Below the pieces are notes generated by a model. That model did no database searches. It was given only the letters and a program-made list of their open reading frames with translations, and was not told where the DNA came from. The translations under genes and the position numbers were made by a program. Below are positions 3,573-11,331 of a stretch of 61,035 bases of DNA, piece after piece. Every line of letters begins with the position of its first letter. The stretch's first letter is position 1. The stretch is from Actinomycetes bacterium (lineage in GTDB: Bacteria; Actinomycetota; Actinomycetes; Jiangellales; Jiangellaceae), in contig JAJYTA010000006.1 of assembly GCA_021793295.1 (NCBI GenBank), positions 1 through 61,035 on the forward strand. Reading direction: 5' to 3'.

Positions 3573-5450
3573 TCATCTCGGGGTCGATCGAGCTGATGCG
3601 TAGAGGGCGTCGATCTCGGCGGCGCAGGCTTCGAGAACATGTGCGCGGCGCAACTTCAGCGACGGCGTCAGCAGGCCGTTGTCCTCGGTGAAATCGTCGT
3701 CGACGATGGCGAACGCACGGATCGATTCCGCCCGCGACACTGTCGCATTGACCTCGTCGACGGCGTCCTGGAGCGTGCGACGCAGCCCGTCGTCCGACGG
3801 GTCGTCGGTATGCGCGCGCCAGTGCTCCACAGCTTCGGTGTCGAGGGTGATCAGCGCGGCGACGAACGGACGGTCGTCGCCGACGAGCATGCACTGGCTG
3901 ATCAGCGGATGTCCGCGCAGCTGATCTTCCATCGGGCCCGGCGAGACGTTCTTGCCGGTGCTCGTGACCAGGATCTCCTTGGACCGCCCGGTGACGGTCA
4001 GGTACCCGTCGGCGTCCAGGACGCCCAGGTCGCCGGTGCTGAACCAGCCGTCGTCGTCGATTCCCTCCCCCGACTCGTGGTAGCCGGAGAACACTTGCGG
4101 GCCGCGGACCTGCACTTCGCCGTTGCCGGCCACCCGAACCTCGGCTCCGGGAACCGGGCGCCCGACGGTGTCGGGACGGGGCCGCGTGGGCGGGTTGATC
4201 GTGATGGCGGCGCAGGTCTCGGTCAGCCCGTAGCCCTGCACGATCACCACCCCGGCACCGGCGAAGAAGTGCGTCAGACGCGGCGACAGCGCCGAGCCGC
4301 CGCTGATCGCGTACCGCACCCGCCCGCCCAGCGCGGCGCGGATACGCCGGTAGACCAGGAGGTCGTAGAGCCGGTGCGCGAGGCGTAGCCCGAGCAGCCC
4401 CCACGGCGAGATGGACGAGCGCGGATCGACCTCGAGCGCCAGGCGCCCATAGCGTTCGGCCACCCGCTCGGCTCGCCCGAACGCCCCGGCCTTGCCCATC
4501 TCGGTGGCCTGTTGCCGCGCCACGTCACGGATCTTCTCGAACACGTAAGGGATGCCGACCAGGAACGTCGGTTCGAACGAGGCGAGGTCGGGGCGCAGCT
4601 CGTCCGGCGCGACCGACGGCGCGTGCCCCAGGACCACGCGTTCACGCAGGCACGCCAGTTGAACGACCCGACCGAGCACGTGCGCCAACGGCAGGAACAA
4701 GATGGTGGACGGCTCCTGACCGGTCGCGGCGCGAAACGGCGGCAGCAGCAGGGCCGTGATGCTGTCGACCTCGGCCAGCAGGCTGGCATGGGTGAGCACG
4801 CAGCCCTTGGGCCGCCCGGTGGTGCCCGACGTGTAGATGACGGTGGCCACGGCTTGCGGCGAGATCGCCGCCCGGCGTTGCTCGACGACCGACGGCTCCA
4901 CGTCGGCACCACCGCGGCGCACGTCCTCCACGGCGCCCTCGTCGATACAGGCCACCGGCACCGACACGCCGGTGGTGCCGAGCATGTCGACCTGCTCGCG
5001 CGTCTCCACCACGCAGAACATCGCGCCGCTGTCGGTGAGGATCCATCGAGCCTGCTCGGCCGACGAGGTCGGGTAGATCGGCACGACCACGCCGCCGGCC
5101 GCCCACGTCGCCAGGTCGACGAGCATCCATTCGTAGGTGGTGCGGGCCATCAGCGCCACTCGGCCGCCGGGTTCCAGGCCCTGCGCGATCAGCCCGCCGG
5201 CCAGCGCGGAAACGTCGTCGGCGAGCTGTCGTGCCGTGACGTCGCGCCAGGTGCCGCCGGTCTTGCGCCGGACGACGACGGTGTCGGGCGCCTCGGCGGC
5301 GTTGGTGAACGCGATGTCGGCGAGGCTGCCGAGCGCGTCGGGGCGGCCGAGTGGGCGGGTGAAGACGGTGCGATCGGTCGGGGCCGTCCCGGTGACTTCG
5401 ACGACGGGCTCGGCGACGAGGCGGCGGACCCGGGCGAGTTCGTTCAGCAT
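3573..5450 (-). CDS. long-chain fatty-acid--CoA ligase (AMP-forming)
   Basis: A 625-residue ANL-superfamily enzyme that would activate fatty acids to acyl-CoA through an acyl-adenylate. The P-loop-like motif YTSGTTGRPKGCVLTH is intact, followed by GYGLTETCAAITINPP and the hinge region GWFSTGDLGVLDADGYLTVTGR; the C-terminal catalytic Lys region is SLKLRR. Length and the FadD15-like architecture (long insertion between the SGTTG and GLTE motifs) fit long-chain substrates. The ATG at 5450 overlaps the thiolase stop by 7 bases (ATGCTGA), indicating translational coupling. It is the distal gene of a two-gene operon leaving the 6.8 kb divergent promoter. Substrate chain length is inference. Confidence 0.93.
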   Translation of the reverse strand: MLNELARVRRLVAEPVVEVTGTAPTDRTVFTRPLGRPDALGSLADIAFTNAAEAPDTVVVRRKTGGTWRDVTARQLADDVSALAGGLIAQGLEPGGRVALMARTTYEWMLVDLATWAAGGVVVPIYPTSSAEQARWILTDSGAMFCVVETREQVDMLGTTGVSVPVACIDEGAVEDVRRGGADVEPSVVEQRRAAISPQAVATVIYTSGTTGRPKGCVLTHASLLAEVDSITALLLPPFRAATGQEPSTILFLPLAHVLGRVVQLACLRERVVLGHAPSVAPDELRPDLASFEPTFLVGIPYVFEKIRDVARQQATEMGKAGAFGRAERVAERYGRLALEVDPRSSISPWGLLGLRLAHRLYDLLVYRRIRAALGGRVRYAISGGSALSPRLTHFFAGAGVVIVQGYGLTETCAAITINPPTRPRPDTVGRPVPGAEVRVAGNGEVQVRGPQVFSGYHESGEGIDDDGWFSTGDLGVLDADGYLTVTGRSKEILVTSTGKNVSPGPMEDQLRGHPLISQCMLVGDDRPFVAALITLDTEAVEHWRAHTDDPSDDGLRRTLQDAVDEVNATVSRAESIRAFAIVDDDFTEDNGLLTPSLKLRRAHVLEACAAEIDALYASARSTPR

Positions 5451-6745
5451 GGGGCCTCCAGTAGCGCGACGACGCCCTGCCCTCCGGCCGCGCAGATCGA
5501 TATGAGACCGCGGGTCGGCCGTCCGATCTCACCGGCCCGGGTCGACAGCAGCGTGGCCAGCGTCGCCACGATGCGCGCGCCGGTGGCGGCGAACGGATGT
5601 CCGGTGGCCAGTGACGATCCGGCGACGTTGAGCCGCTCCGGCGGGACCGTCCCGAACGCGTCCGGCAGCCCGAGGCGTTGCTTGCAGAACGCTGGGTCGG
5701 ACCACGCGTCGAGGGTGGCCAACACCTGGGCGGCGAAGGCCTCGTGGATCTCGACGAGGTCGATGTCGTCGAGGGTCAGTCCGGCCCGTCGCAGCAGCTC
5801 GGGCACGGCGTACACCGGCGCCATGAGCAACCCGTCGGCGCCGGAGACGAAGTCGACGGCAGCCGTTCGCACGTCCACCAGGTAGGCCAGCACATCGTGC
5901 CCACGCTCACGGGCCCACTCCTGCGACGACAGCAGGACCGTCGCGGCACCATCGGTCAGCGCGGTCGAGTTGCCCGCCGTCATCGTGGCCGTGCCCGGTT
6001 CGCCGAAGACGGTGCGCAGCTGGGCCAGGCGTTCGGGGGTGGAGTCCGCCCGGAGCACGTCGTCGCGGGTGAGGCCCAGATACGGGGTCATGAGGTCGTC
6101 GAACAGCCCTTCGTCGTAGGCCTGGGCCAGACGTCGATGGCTTCGGGCGGCCAGCTCGTCCTGCGCTGCCCGGCCGACCCGGTGCTCGAGCGCGGTCCGA
6201 GCGGCATGATCACCCATCGACAGGCCGGTGCGCGGTTCGGCGTTGCGTGGCGCTTCCGGCAACAGGTGTCGGGGCCTGGCCCGGGCCAGCGCCCGTAGCG
6301 TCCCGGTGACGCCGCGCGCCCGGCGGGCCGCGAGCAGGTGGCGGCGCAGGTCGTCGTGGACGGCCAAAGGGGCATCGCTGGCGCTGTCGGCACCACCGGC
6401 GATACCGGCGTCGATCTGTCCCAGCGCGATCTTGTTGCCGACGGCGGCCACGGCTTCCAGGCTCGTCCCGCAGGCTCGCTGCAGGTCGTAGGCGGGGGTG
6501 CGAGGGTCGAGCCGGCTGCCGAGGACGACTTCACGGGTCAGATTGAAATCGCGGGCGTGCTTGAGGACGGCGCCGGCGACGACCTCGCCGAGCAGGTCAC
6601 CGTCCAGACCGAACCGGGTGATCAGCCCGTCCAGCGCCGCGGCGAGCAGGTCGCTGGTGGAAGCCTGCGCATAAGCACCGTCGGCGCGCGCGAACGGGAT
6701 GCGGTTGCCGCCCAGGATCGCCACAGGACGCGGAGTCTGGATCAT
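5444..6745 (-). CDS. thiolase, acetyl-CoA acetyltransferase (FadA2-like)
   Basis: A thiolase of 433 residues catalysing reversible cleavage or condensation of 3-ketoacyl-CoA. The nucleophilic Cys lies in LQRACGTSLEA, the catalytic His in EIHEAFAAQ, and the second Cys in SICAAGGQG; the AGNSTALTDGA substrate loop is also present. The start is set at ATG 6745 (MIQTPRP) because a GGAAGGAG ribosome site precedes it; an upstream in-frame ATG at 6763 lacks one. Gene order (thiolase divergent from a FabG4-like reductase and HtdX-like hydratase) mirrors the mycobacterial fadA2-fabG4-htdX locus. Expression is probably controlled by the palindromes at 6791-6823. Confidence 0.93.
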   Translation of the reverse strand: MIQTPRPVAILGGNRIPFARADGAYAQASTSDLLAAALDGLITRFGLDGDLLGEVVAGAVLKHARDFNLTREVVLGSRLDPRTPAYDLQRACGTSLEAVAAVGNKIALGQIDAGIAGGADSASDAPLAVHDDLRRHLLAARRARGVTGTLRALARARPRHLLPEAPRNAEPRTGLSMGDHAARTALEHRVGRAAQDELAARSHRRLAQAYDEGLFDDLMTPYLGLTRDDVLRADSTPERLAQLRTVFGEPGTATMTAGNSTALTDGAATVLLSSQEWARERGHDVLAYLVDVRTAAVDFVSGADGLLMAPVYAVPELLRRAGLTLDDIDLVEIHEAFAAQVLATLDAWSDPAFCKQRLGLPDAFGTVPPERLNVAGSSLATGHPFAATGARIVATLATLLSTRAGEIGRPTRGLISICAAGGQGVVALLEAPC

Positions 6746-6790
6746 CAGCGCTCCTTCCACCATCGCCGCTCCGGCGTCGGTTCGAGCGGA

Positions 6791-6823
6791 GTCTACTAGG
6801 CAGTAGACTTACTGACCAGTAAG
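6791..6823. promoter_or_regulatory. two adjacent TetR-type operator palindromes in divergent promoter
   Basis: Two perfect dyads lie between the divergent thiolase and FabG4 genes. GTCTACTaggcAGTAGAC spans 6791-6808 and CTTACTGacCAGTAAG spans 6808-6823. Both share the core TACT-N4-AGTA with centres 16 bases apart. Closely related pairs occur at 9611-9642 beside the TetR gene, so the TetR protein encoded at 8961-9581 is the likely ligand. Confidence 0.75.
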
Positions 6824-6833
6824 ATCTCGGGCC

Positions 6834-8156
6834 ATGTCCGACCCCTACTTCCGGATCGCCAACAGCGCTCTCGGACGCGCGGCGCTGCGCCGGTTGTCGC
6901 TCCCGATTCCCGTGCCGCTGCGCCGGTACCGGCCCGGCGAGCCGCTGACCGACGGGCCCGTTCTCCTCCTGAACGCCGCAGACGACCTCGCCGAGGTGGT
7001 GCACTCGCTCGGCGTCGACGTCCACACCCGCACACCCCCGAACGGCTGCGCCGCGGTCGTCCTGGACGCCCGAGGTGTGCGCTCCAGCCGCGAACTCGAC
7101 GTCGTCCCTCGGCTCTTGTCGCCGATCATGCGCTCTCTGCGGCCGCACGCGCGCGTCGTGACAGCCGGGCTTCCACCGAACACCGCCGCCACGACCAGCG
7201 CTGCCGTCGCGCAGCGGGCTCTCGAGGGCAGCACCCGCTCGCTGGGCAGAGAATTGCGCGACGGGGCGACGTCCAACCTGGTCCAGATCGAGCCGGGAGC
7301 CGAGCACGACGCCCAGTCGGCGCTGCGGTTCCTGCTCTCCGGCCGCTCGGCTTACGTGTCCGGCCAGGTCGTCCGCGTTACGGCAGCACCGGAACCACCC
7401 GCACCGATCGATTGGGACCGCCCCCTCGACTCGACTGTGGCGCTGGTGACCGGGGCGGCGAACGGGATCGGCGCCAGCATCGCCCGGGTGCTCTCACGCG
7501 ACGGCGCCCAGGTCGTCTGCGTCGACACGCCGGCCCAGAACGACGCACTACGCGACGTCGCCGCGAGCATCGGCGGGCATCCGCTGAGCGTCGACCTCAC
7601 CGATTCAGACGCCGCCGACCGGATCGCCGCACATCTGCGGCAGGCTCATGACGGAGTCGACGTCGTGGTGCACAACGCCGGCATCACCCGGGACAAGACG
7701 CTGGTTCGGATGGACGCCGACCGGTGGTCGTCGGTGCTCGACGTCAACCTCACCGCCACCGAGCGGCTGACCGAGGCCGTCCTCGCCGACGGCCTGCTGC
7801 GCGAGGGCGGTGCGATCGTCGCGACGTCGTCGATCAACGGCATCGCGGGCAACCGTGGGCAGACGAACTACGCCGCCAGCAAGGCGGGTGTCATCGGACT
7901 GGTCGACGCACTGGCAGCGAGCCTGCGCGATTCCGGCCGCCGGATCAACGCGGTGGCTCCGGGCTTCATCGAGACCAGGCTCACCGCGCGGATGCCCGCG
8001 TTCACCCGCGAAGTCGCTCGCCGGCTCAACAGCCTCGGGCAGGGCGGGCAACCGATCGACGTCGCCGAGACCGTGGCCTGGCTGGCCGCTCCTGCCACGG
8101 CCGGGGTGAACGGCCAGACGATCAGAGTGTGCGGGCAGGCGTTGCTCGGTGCCTGA
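6834..8156 (+). CDS. fabG4: FabG4-like two-domain 3-oxoacyl reductase (SDR)
   Basis: A 440-residue high-molecular-weight FabG. Residues 1-195 form an N-terminal domain (the flavodoxin-like domain of FabG4 proteins). Residues 200-440 are a classical SDR: cofactor motif VTGAANGIGASIARVL, NNAG-equivalent HNAGITRDK, and the catalytic Ser (TSSINGI), Tyr and Lys (YAASKAG). It should reduce 3-oxoacyl-CoA or -ACP with NAD(P)H. It starts with ATG 11 bases past the operator, and its stop overlaps the hydratase start by 8 bases. Pairing with an HtdX-like hydratase and thiolase suggests reversible beta-oxidation or elongation of acyl-CoA. The symbol follows the mycobacterial family and the local gene order. 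Confidence 0.88.
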   Translation: MSDPYFRIANSALGRAALRRLSLPIPVPLRRYRPGEPLTDGPVLLLNAADDLAEVVHSLGVDVHTRTPPNGCAAVVLDARGVRSSRELDVVPRLLSPIMRSLRPHARVVTAGLPPNTAATTSAAVAQRALEGSTRSLGRELRDGATSNLVQIEPGAEHDAQSALRFLLSGRSAYVSGQVVRVTAAPEPPAPIDWDRPLDSTVALVTGAANGIGASIARVLSRDGAQVVCVDTPAQNDALRDVAASIGGHPLSVDLTDSDAADRIAAHLRQAHDGVDVVVHNAGITRDKTLVRMDADRWSSVLDVNLTATERLTEAVLADGLLREGGAIVATSSINGIAGNRGQTNYAASKAGVIGLVDALAASLRDSGRRINAVAPGFIETRLTARMPAFTREVARRLNSLGQGGQPIDVAETVAWLAAPATAGVNGQTIRVCGQALLGA

Positions 8157-9000
8157 TTTCACCCTGCTCCGGGCCGCCGTGTCGGTGCTCGTCCCCCGCC
8201 AGCCGCCACCTGCGCACCCGGTGCACCTCGAGCGGGACGGCCTGCGGGTCGATCCCGACCGGGTCGCGGCGTACGCGCGGGTGTGCGGCGCACACGAGGT
8301 CGACCCGCTACCGATCCTGTACCCACACGTGCTGGCGTTCGGGCTCACCATGCGCGTGATGAGCAGGCGTGACTTCCCTTTCCCCGCCCCCGGGCTCATT
8401 CACGTCCACGACGTCGTCACCCAGCACCACCCGATCGGCATCACCGACTCGCTCGACCTGCGCGTCACCGCCGGGGAACCACGACCCCACCACCGCGGGC
8501 GCGTCGTCGATGTCCACACCGAAGTCAGCGTCGACGGGCAGCCGGTGTGGTCGCAGCGCAGCTCGTACCTTCGTCGCGACACCCGGACGCGCGGCACGGC
8601 GGCGCCGCGTTCCACCGACGACGACCTGAGCGCCTGGCCCGAGATCGACCGATGGCCGGCCGCCGCTGACATCGGCCGCCGGTACGCGTCGGTGTCCGGC
8701 GATCGCAACCCCATCCATCTGTCGGCGCTCACGGCCCGGCCGTTCGGTTTCCGCCGGGCGATCGCGCACGGCATGTGGACGACGGCTCGGGCGCTGAGCA
8801 GTCTGCAACCTGAACAGCCGAGCGCCACCACGGTCGCCGTCGACTTCATGGCACCGGTCACCCTGCCGACGACGTTGATCCTCGCCGCGACGCCGGCACG
8901 TGACCGGTTCGTGGTCCGCTCCCTGAACGGGCGGATCCATGTGAGCGGCTCGCTACGAGCTCACGACGACGCGGGCCGCCACGACGCGCCGTCGATCTGA
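8149..9000 (+). CDS. MaoC/HtdX-like 3-hydroxyacyl dehydratase (double hotdog)
   Basis: A 283-residue (R)-specific hydratase/dehydratase with two hotdog halves. The C-terminal half carries the hydratase-2 motif: YASVSGDRNPIH followed by FRRAIAHGMWTTARAL, giving the catalytic Asp/His and the overhanging helix. The N-terminal half (about 30-150) is a degenerate hotdog with YPHVLAFGLTMRVM. Start GTG 8149 overlaps the reductase stop, so the two are translationally coupled. It would interconvert 3-hydroxyacyl- and trans-2-enoyl-thioesters, completing a cycle with the neighbouring reductase, thiolase and acyl-CoA dehydrogenase. Its last 40 bases overlap the convergent TetR gene. Confidence 0.88.
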   Translation: MPDFTLLRAAVSVLVPRQPPPAHPVHLERDGLRVDPDRVAAYARVCGAHEVDPLPILYPHVLAFGLTMRVMSRRDFPFPAPGLIHVHDVVTQHHPIGITDSLDLRVTAGEPRPHHRGRVVDVHTEVSVDGQPVWSQRSSYLRRDTRTRGTAAPRSTDDDLSAWPEIDRWPAAADIGRRYASVSGDRNPIHLSALTARPFGFRRAIAHGMWTTARALSSLQPEQPSATTVAVDFMAPVTLPTTLILAATPARDRFVVRSLNGRIHVSGSLRAHDDAGRHDAPSI

Positions 9001-9581
9001 CGCTCGATGCCGATCCACACCAGGTTCATCAACCGCGCCGTCGTGACGGTGGCCGGCTCGCCGGTCCGGCTCGCCCACTCCGCGAGCGCATCGGCGGCAC
9101 CGACCAGGGCATGCGACAGCGCTCCGGCTTCGCCAGCCGAAGCCCCGCGTTGATCGACCAAGCCGGTGACGGCGTCGATGATGTCGTGGCGGGCTCGGTC
9201 GACCTCGTCGGCGAACGGCGGGCCGAGTGCCCGGGCGCGGTGGTACAGCACGTTCCAGCTGTCCTTGTGCTCCGCGACGTAGCCGAAGAAGGCTTCGAAG
9301 CCGGACACGAGGCGGCACTCGATGGTCGCGGCATCGTGGACGGCGGAGGTGATGCGCTCCATCAACCGCGCCGCTTCCCGGCGGATGCACGCGCCGAACA
9401 GGTCCTCCTTGGACCCCAGATACAGGTACACCATCGGCTTGGAGACCCCGGCGAGTTCGGCGACCTCGTCCATGGACGCTCCGTGGTAGCCACGGTCGGC
9501 GAACACGCGGACCGCGGCGTCGAGCATCTGCTGCTCGCGCACCGCGCGCGGCAGCCGCTTGGGGTTGGCGACACCGGTCAC
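8961..9581 (-). CDS. TetR/AcrR-family transcriptional regulator
   Basis: A 206-residue regulator with a TetR N-terminal HTH (residues 12-60: REQQMLDAAVRVFADRGYHG, then VAELAGVSKPMVYLYLGSKEDLF) and an all-helical ligand domain. It sits inside the lipid module, divergent from the SCP2-like/acyl-CoA dehydrogenase genes, with matching palindromes on both sides of the module (6791-6823 and 9611-9642). It is therefore the likely local repressor, released by an acyl-CoA-type ligand (inference). Start is GTG 9581 behind a weak AAGG; a start a few codons downstream is possible. The 3' end overlaps the hydratase gene by 40 bases in convergent orientation. Confidence 0.9.
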   Translation of the reverse strand: MTGVANPKRLPRAVREQQMLDAAVRVFADRGYHGASMDEVAELAGVSKPMVYLYLGSKEDLFGACIRREAARLMERITSAVHDAATIECRLVSGFEAFFGYVAEHKDSWNVLYHRARALGPPFADEVDRARHDIIDAVTGLVDQRGASAGEAGALSHALVGAADALAEWASRTGEPATVTTARLMNLVWIGIERQIDGASWRPASS

Positions 9582-9610
9582 CTTGCCACTCTAATCTACG
9601 GCCCCGTAAC

Positions 9611-9642
9611 CTTACCCATCAGTAAACTTACTCATTGGTAAG
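9611..9642. promoter_or_regulatory. second paired TetR-type operator, overlapping the scp2-like RBS
   Basis: Two imperfect dyads, CTTACccatCAGTAAa (9611-9626) and CTTACTcattGGTAAG (9627-9642), have centres 16 bases apart, the same spacing as at 6791-6823. The second runs into the GGTAAGGAG ribosome site of the gene starting at 9650. The site lies between the divergent TetR and SCP2-like genes, as expected for autoregulation plus repression of the flanking operon. Confidence 0.72.
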
Positions 9643-9649
9643 GAGTCGC

Positions 9650-10108
9650 ATGGTTGCCGACCTGTCCTCGCTCGACTTCAGCGAGATCTCTCCGCACGAG
9701 TTCGCCCGCATCGTCAAGTCCGCCGACCGCGGCGACCTGCACACCCTGATGGCCGGTCCGACACGCGAGCGGGTGCTGGACGAGGTCTTCGCCCGGATGG
9801 CCGACCAGTTCCGCTCCGACGTCGGCGCCCACCTCGACGCCACCGTGCGCTGGCGGCTGCGGTCCGCCGGCGAGGAAGCCGAGACGACGTACGAGCTGAC
9901 CATGACGCAGGGGCAGTGCACCACCAGCAAGGGAGCCTCGGACGTAGCGCCACGGGTGACGATCACCATCGGCGACGTCGACTTCCTCAAGCTCGTCTCC
10001 GGCAACACCGGCGGGCCCACGCTGTTCATGACGCGCAAGCTGCGCGCGGACGGCGACCTCGGCCTGGCCGCGAGCCTCACTCGGTACTTCGACATCCCCC
10101 GCGCCTGA
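9650..10108 (+). CDS. SCP2-like sterol/lipid-binding domain protein
   Basis: A 152-residue cytoplasmic protein resembling SCP2 sterol-transfer domains. It contains a predicted amphipathic beta sheet (VRWRLRSAGEEAETTYELTM), a VTITIGDVDFLKLVSGNTGG segment and the typical ending MTRKLRADGDLGLAASL. The N-terminal 50 residues (DLSSLDFSEISPHEFARIVK) are an extra helical region. The start is ATG 9650, set by GGTAAGGAG seven bases upstream. It is followed after 11 bases by an acyl-CoA dehydrogenase. Such domains bind or carry fatty acyl-CoA and sterols; here it may present substrate to the module's enzymes (inference). Confidence 0.8.
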   Translation: MVADLSSLDFSEISPHEFARIVKSADRGDLHTLMAGPTRERVLDEVFARMADQFRSDVGAHLDATVRWRLRSAGEEAETTYELTMTQGQCTTSKGASDVAPRVTITIGDVDFLKLVSGNTGGPTLFMTRKLRADGDLGLAASLTRYFDIPRA

Positions 10109-10119
10109 ACGGAGCCACG

Positions 10120-11331
10120 ATGGTCTTTTCGCTCACCCTCAGCGAGGAACAGTGCGAGCTACGCGACTGGGTCCACGGCTTCGCCGCCGACGTCTTGCGC
10201 CCGGCGGCACGGGAATGGGACGAAGCCGAGCAGACGCCGTGGCCGATCATTCAAGAGGCCGCCAAGATCGGGCTGTACGGGTTCGAGTCGCTGGCCGAGA
10301 CCTGGTCGGACCCCACCGGCCTGTCCCTGCCGATCCTCAATGAGGAACTGTTCTGGGGCGACGCCGGCCTCGCCATGTCGATCATGGGGACGAGCCTTGC
10401 CGTGGCGAGCATCTTCGCCGCAGGCACCGGAGAGCAACTGGCCGAGTGGGTACCGGCGTGCTTCGGCGACGCCGACGAGCCCCAGGTGGCGGCGTTCTGC
10501 ACGTCAGAGCCCGACGCCGGCTCCGACGTGTCGTCGATGCGCACTCGCGCCCGGTACGACGAGGCATCCGACGAGTGGATCATCAGCGGGCAGAAGGCCT
10601 GGATCACCAACGGTGGCATCGCCAACATCCATGTCGTGACAGCAGCGGTCGAACCCGACCTCGGCTCGCGTGGCCAAGCGGCGTTCGTCGTCCCGCCCGG
10701 TTCCCGAGGTGTCGAGAGCACCCGCAAGATCGCCAAGCTGGGTCTGCGCGCATCACACACCGCCGACGTCTTCTTCGACGACGTGCGGGTCCCGGGGCGG
10801 TGCCTGCTCGGCGGGAAAGAACGCCTCGATCGACGCCTGGCAGCTGCACGTGAAGGACGTTCCGCTCGCTCCCAGGCCGCCATGGCCACCTTCGAAGTCA
10901 GCCGGCCCACGGTGGGTGCTCAAGCGCTGGGCATCGCCCGGGCGGCCTACGAGTACGCGCGGGACTACGCCCGCGAGCGCGTCCAGTTCGGCCGCCCCCT
11001 CACCGAACACCAGGCCATCGCGTTCGCCCTGGCCGACTTGCACACCGAGATCGACGCAGCCCGACTGCTCGTCTGGCGCGCGGCGTCGATGGCTCGCACC
11101 GATCAACCGCACACGGCCGGTGAAGGGTCCATGGCCAAGCTGAAAGCCGGCGAGGTAGCCGTCGCGGCGACCGAGAAGGCCGTTCAGATCCTCGGCGGCG
11201 CGGGCTACAGCCGTGAGCACCCCGTCGAGCGGATGTACCGGGACGCGAAGCTCTACACCATCTTCGAGGGAACCTCGGAGATCCAGCGGTTGGTGATCGC
11301 GCGCGCGATCACCGGTGCGAGCCTGCGCTGA
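10120..11331 (+). CDS. acyl-CoA dehydrogenase (FadE family)
   Basis: A 403-residue FAD-dependent enzyme oxidising acyl-CoA to trans-2-enoyl-CoA. Typical segments appear in order: FCTSEPDAGSDVSSM (FAD/substrate loop), ISGQKAWITNGG, FDDVRVPGRCLLG, the RVQFGRPLTEHQA signature, QILGGAGYSREHPVERMYRDAK, and the catalytic Glu in YTIFEGTSEIQRL. Start ATG 10120 follows GGAG. It is co-transcribed with the SCP2-like gene and probably controlled by the TetR sites at 9611-9642. It supplies the first oxidation step for the hydratase, reductase and thiolase encoded alongside. Confidence 0.93.
   Translation: MVFSLTLSEEQCELRDWVHGFAADVLRPAAREWDEAEQTPWPIIQEAAKIGLYGFESLAETWSDPTGLSLPILNEELFWGDAGLAMSIMGTSLAVASIFAAGTGEQLAEWVPACFGDADEPQVAAFCTSEPDAGSDVSSMRTRARYDEASDEWIISGQKAWITNGGIANIHVVTAAVEPDLGSRGQAAFVVPPGSRGVESTRKIAKLGLRASHTADVFFDDVRVPGRCLLGGKERLDRRLAAAREGRSARSQAAMATFEVSRPTVGAQALGIARAAYEYARDYARERVQFGRPLTEHQAIAFALADLHTEIDAARLLVWRAASMARTDQPHTAGEGSMAKLKAGEVAVAATEKAVQILGGAGYSREHPVERMYRDAKLYTIFEGTSEIQRLVIARAITGASLR

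Follow-up and report, generated by a model that had tools for sequence, protein, structure and literature searches.

The lipid gene block of the window, by which we mean the whole 61,035-nucleotide stretch of a Jiangellaceae contig analysed here, carries a pair of palindromes at each of its two divergent promoters and a tetR gene between them, which raises the question of whether the encoded TetR protein reads all four sites and whether the spacing within each pair has a meaning. The block (3573-11331) comprises seven genes, fadD-fadA2 on the minus strand, fabG4-htdX on the plus strand, tetR on the minus strand and SCP2-acyl-CoA dehydrogenase on the plus strand, with the following features:

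3573-5450, minus strand: AMP-binding acyl-CoA ligase, FadD-like (domain search)
5444-6763, minus strand: thiolase in the FadA2 position (NF006740)
6794-6805: candidate operator dyad A1, TACTAGGCAGTA, arms TCTACT...AGTAGA (motif search)
6810-6821: candidate operator dyad A2, TACTGACCAGTA, the copy adjoining fabG4, kept across lineages
6820-6825, plus strand: possible -10 TAAGAT of fabG4, overlapping dyad A2, 8 nt before the ATG (by eye)
6834-8156, plus strand: FabG4-type 3-oxoacyl reductase (NF006110)
8149-9000, plus strand: MaoC-type dehydratase in the HtdX position (domain search and gene order)
8961-9581, minus strand: predicted TetR-family repressor, FdmR-type (TetR_N and TetR_C_46)
9597-9608: weak, imperfect third dyad, TACGGCCCCGTA, continuing the 16-bp phase on the tetR side
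9613-9624: candidate operator dyad B1, TACCCATCAGTA (motif search)
9629-9640: candidate operator dyad B2, TACTCATTGGTA, touching the Shine-Dalgarno AAGGAG at 9640-9645
9650-10108, plus strand: SCP2 domain protein (domain search)
10120-11331, plus strand: acyl-CoA dehydrogenase (domain search)

Read by eye, fadA2 more likely starts at 6745, behind GGAAGGAG, than at 6763.

Form and uniqueness of the palindrome pairs

The initial annotation had described two palindrome pairs at 6791-6823 and 9611-9642, each spaced 16 bp centre to centre, and both were recovered by motif search. Pair A lies in the fadA2/fabG4 gap and pair B in the tetR/SCP2 gap, the centre spacing being exactly 16 bp in each and the arms reaching approximately 6792-6823 and 9611-9642. 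The core first given, TACT-N4-(A/G)GTA, holds for three of the four dyads, but the dyad at 9613 reads TACC, and the consensus is therefore TACY-N4-RGTA. The position of tetR between the pairs was confirmed, as was the overlap of one pair with a ribosome site, the Shine-Dalgarno touched by dyad B2 standing ahead of the ATG at 9650. All half-sites within a pair are 4 bp apart (TACY-4-RGTA-4-TACY-4-RGTA), which gives each 28-bp pair as a whole an approximate dyad symmetry, as would suit two dimers bound next to each other. The third dyad at 9597-9608 may be due to chance; it may also give room for a third dimer. A scan with consensus promoters gave no match, and the overlaps of the dyads with -10 and Shine-Dalgarno elements were read by eye.

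Single cores elsewhere in the window (33941 and 50255, which together with pairs A and B make six strict cores) and the count of TTACYNNNNRGTAA in the own genome at up to one mismatch, which is not enriched (26 matches versus 34 for the control), would be in line with palindromes arising by chance in an A+T-richer intergenic region. Such an origin is nevertheless scarcely credible and was rejected, given that 300 dinucleotide shuffles of the window contained on average 0.19 cores and not one pair at any spacing from 12 to 40, that the exact 16-bp pair occurs at only two places in the own genome (4,674,525 bases, approximately 4.67 Mb), namely A and B, and that the pairs are conserved across genera, as described below. 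Allowing up to two mismatches, the genome holds two further pair matches, and the reversed control pattern none. Since the one-mismatch count does not rise above the control, a wider regulon in this genome is not claimed, single sites on contigs C166, C41 and C222 having been considered.

These single sites have neighbours of their own. A perfect core (C166:18547; L196 4048) lies just upstream of the gene for a 727-aa Fe-S/CCG protein that resembles an EtfD-type electron-transfer partner of beta-oxidation, a near-perfect one (C41:464; L202) stands directly before that for a 662-aa VLCAD-like acyl-CoA dehydrogenase, and the site on C222 falls between amine oxidase and GPP34 genes.

Identity of the TetR protein and origin of the block

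Both TetR_N (PF00440) and the TetR C-terminal domain PF21943 (TetR_C_46) were found above cut-off in the window TetR. A 55-row tree places it inside a 27-row clade of htdX-fabG4-fadA2 regulators (support 99/98), from which FasR and a third TetR group are split (100/98). All eight rows of family f4 fall inside this clade, on a long branch; the tree holds no named mycobacterial sequence, and f4 was assigned by the FasR model and gene order. Each of the 11 f4 genomes scanned has a protein that passes the mycobacterial FasR model, besides a separate FdmR-type protein, which makes the family Mycobacteriaceae-like.

The gene order TetR-htdX-fabG4-fadA2 is found at the window locus. In genome G024 the order and strands are tetR+, htdX-, fabG4-, fadA2+ and fadE5-, which we take to match Rv0238, Rv0241c, Rv0242c, Rv0243 and Rv0244c, the neighbours presumably bearing these numbers. 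Tree and gene order thus place the window TetR with the Mycobacteriaceae-type htdX-fabG4-fadA2 regulators, and the block most probably represents an FdmR module outside the mycobacteria, with a predicted autoregulated repressor acting on both divergent promoters. The FdmR of M. marinum was reportedly described by Dong et al. in 2021. It and Rv0238 have in common with the window the TetR clade, the htdX-fabG4-fadA2 order and strands, and fatty-acid breakdown genes, and the same core stands at fabG4/fadA2 in Mycobacteriaceae-type genomes. The mycobacterial-type fabG4/fadA2 promoter mostly retains one dyad, whereas in the window both promoters have intact pairs and there is an SCP2-acyl-CoA dehydrogenase arm in divergent orientation. 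An excerpt of PMC12403877 identifies Rv0238 as FdmR, a repressor of fatty-acid degradation genes that responds to long-chain acyl-CoA, and one of PMC9262360 names fadE5 as its target.

Other named regulators were rejected as identities for the window TetR. FasR (Rv3208) is a related TetR with similar half-sites, which senses acyl-CoA and binds several inverted repeats (PMC7382501, in excerpt), but it has its own clade and acts as an activator of fas-acpS; the window protein reaches 107 bits against the NCBIfam model NF053731, whose cut-off is 330. The own genome also encodes a separate FasR-type protein (248 bits, C291) and a third-clade TetR beside a desaturase (C168). Similarity to the DarR chain is weak (29 bits, 6.6e-06) and covers the DNA-binding part only; in an alignment by eye, the recognition helix of the window TetR retains the lysine with which DarR recognises the C of T-x-C (PMC10636190, in excerpt). 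The site of the SCO3201 regulator differs, and the Rv0158 motif gave no match.

The site and the regulator occur together. In the 300 bp upstream of fabG4, a strict core was found in 40 of 43 cases in genomes with the TetR and in 8 of 53 without it, a count that is confounded with family and covers 96 of the 113 fabG4 matches (17 left out), 14 of these 96 loci being without a called start and placed by coordinates. Presence of the TetR means E <= 1e-28 with the best eight candidates per genome scored, and absence holds at that sensitivity. All eight sites in TetR-less genomes belong to a single family (f26), and two genomes that lost the TetR within their families, G164 (f19) and G375 (f4), are also without the fabG4 site.

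No fabG4 gene was found in 21 relatives of the same family, where the best TetR match is approximately 32% identical, although a 797-aa neighbour gene shows 78% identity within the genus. In G001, of the same genus, the neighbour genes are the same but enclose a different stretch, a gap in which the lipid genes are missing. The module is absent from the 21 relatives, and the block was probably gained, the regulator and the two operator pairs included, or else lost repeatedly elsewhere. G002 has no lipid block at the corresponding place.

Conservation and spacing of the dyads

Conservation of the dyads upstream of orthologous modules, the check proposed in the initial annotation, was assessed in 133 loci (80 with TetR relatives, 52 class-wide and the window), bearing in mind that kinship among loci inflates the counts. 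A strict core is present in 42 of 44 divergent fabG4/fadA2 gaps, compared with 0.97 on average and never more than 3 in random intervals of equal size, the two gaps without it both being from Streptomyces. Upstream of tetR a strict core was found in 28/133 loci (random mean 2.3, maximum 9). When tetR is divergent from SCP2, the 16-bp pair, counted at >=7 and >=6 of the 8 core positions, is present at all 31 promoters, window included (random mean 0.22), as opposed to 3 of the 102 tetR loci without divergent SCP2, within 130 bp upstream. The dyads are thus conserved at both kinds of module promoter, and the lack of conservation that the initial annotation had named as a refuting outcome was not observed. 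Of the 74 strict cores in the 80 loci, 40 are followed 16 bp downstream by a match at 6 or more of the 8 core positions (background 0.4%), and adjacent strict pairs at module promoters are spaced by 16 bp in 14/14 cases, one of which duplicates the window and three of which are near-identical. A second spacing peak at 20 bp, seen in 20 of the 31 tetR/SCP2 promoters, arises from the same array. In one Streptomyces locus (L058, 2803-2831), at 3 kb from tetR, the core TACCGATGGGTA occurs twice in identical form with a spacing of 17 bp.

The fixed 16-bp spacing previously proposed for both promoters stands at tetR/SCP2 (31/31), but the second dyad has frequently disappeared at fabG4/fadA2, and Streptomyces shows 15.5 bp. 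In 7 of the 44 fabG4/fadA2 promoters the second dyad stands at 16 bp; in 11, all from Streptomycetaceae, it has a 3-bp spacer and a centre distance of 15.5; 6 keep only half of it, 18 have none, and the remaining 2 are those without a strict core. The second dyad is missing or degenerate in 5/5 Micromonosporaceae and likewise in most Mycobacteriaceae-type promoters; among 19 from f4, 5 keep the distal half only and 12 have none. This split indicates that at fabG4/fadA2 one dyad is conserved and the second depends on lineage, the pair being constant at tetR/SCP2.

Such decay, in part down to a -10-like half in f4, is what makes it possible, though doubtful, that the 16-bp distance says nothing about cooperation, each dyad being bound independently by a single dimer (or by an overlapping two, as in DarR) and the second dyad being retained for its overlap with the -10 of the opposite promoter. 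An excerpt of PMC10636190 lends this reading a precedent, in that the 20-bp DarR operator contains a single TACTCCGGAGTA core, of the same form as that of the window, bound by two dimers on overlapping palindromes; DarR differs from the window in having overlapping rather than side-by-side sites and c-di-AMP as ligand. Independent binding is harder to reconcile with a distance of exactly 16 bp in 31/31 tetR/SCP2 promoters, where the inner bases vary. Cooperative binding by two dimers per pair is a plausible reading of the spacing and would also fit the constant 4-bp gaps between half-sites. A 28-bp operator, the length of the window pairs, is taken by two dimers in QacR-type systems (PMC4482099, in excerpt); QacR differs in being a drug efflux regulator, and the likeness of the window pairs to it would lie in the conserved spacing.

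Readers of the core and proposed control of the block

The core extends beyond this TetR. Among the best-matching 30 of 129 genomes, all 30 fadE5-type loci (L215-L244) have strict cores upstream, most often as pairs at 24-25 bp, compared with 16 bp at the FdmR-type module, and the core is also present at the fadE5-type gene of 11/11 family relatives without module and TetR, which means that a further regulator recognises it as well. The fadE5-type gene of the own genome (C284) has cores at 6810 and 6835 (L198 4011, 4036). The similar half-sites of fadE5-type, FasR and DarR sites indicate that the core marks a wider group of regulators.

It could accordingly be asked whether the operators of the block are read mainly by another acyl-CoA sensor, either the FasR orthologue or the third-clade TetR of this genome, the same protein also reading the fadE5-type promoter and the adjacent TetR having a minor or separate role. 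The fadE5-type cores of the 11 relatives, the existence of both candidate proteins in the own genome and the related half-sites in the FasR crystal oligonucleotide (PMC7382501, in excerpt) speak for it. We consider it improbable, because the spacing is 16 versus 24-25 bp, 45 of the 53 fabG4 genes in genomes without an FdmR-type TetR have no site, the FasR type looks widespread (16/16 genomes scanned, only G001 of these being without the FdmR-type TetR) and the 16-bp pair also stands at the promoter of tetR itself. Adjacency, co-occurrence and the spacing of 16 bp argue for the window TetR as reader, and on this sequence evidence the four palindromes very probably serve as operators for this neighbouring protein, which belongs to the FdmR group though it is not mycobacterial.

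With the adjacent TetR as reader, each 28-bp pair would be occupied by two dimers next to one another when fatty acids are absent. Occupancy of pair A would cover promoter elements of fadA2-fadD and fabG4-htdX, and that of pair B the promoters of tetR and SCP2-acyl-CoA dehydrogenase together with the SCP2 ribosome site, so that all seven genes, tetR included, would be repressed. Binding of long-chain acyl-CoA, a ligand assumed by analogy with FdmR, would release the TetR and turn on fatty-acid activation and breakdown or remodelling. The position of the dyads, A2 overlapping the possible -10 and B2 touching the Shine-Dalgarno, suggests repression by occlusion.

The type of regulator was already known from mycobacteria, and the interest lies in the paired spacing and its contrast with the sister site; in a literature search, the original FdmR study apart, these paired operators turned up in no paper, and that study may report a motif. 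By our reading of the FasR crystal oligonucleotide (PMC7382501, in excerpt) its centres are 13 bp apart, as against 16 bp in the window pairs. As a tentative and rather unlikely proposal, sister acyl-CoA-sensing TetRs that have TACY-N4-RGTA in common may be kept apart by spacing, at 16 bp, at 24-25 bp and at another distance for FasR. If true, spacing and not sequence would be the specificity code, and one cell would use both codes. The present findings carry the FdmR repressor beyond the mycobacteria, from which it was known, to a broad range of actinobacteria with a predicted operator, and they offer a sharp test case for whether sister fatty-acid regulators within one cell are kept separate by how far apart their near-identical half-sites lie.
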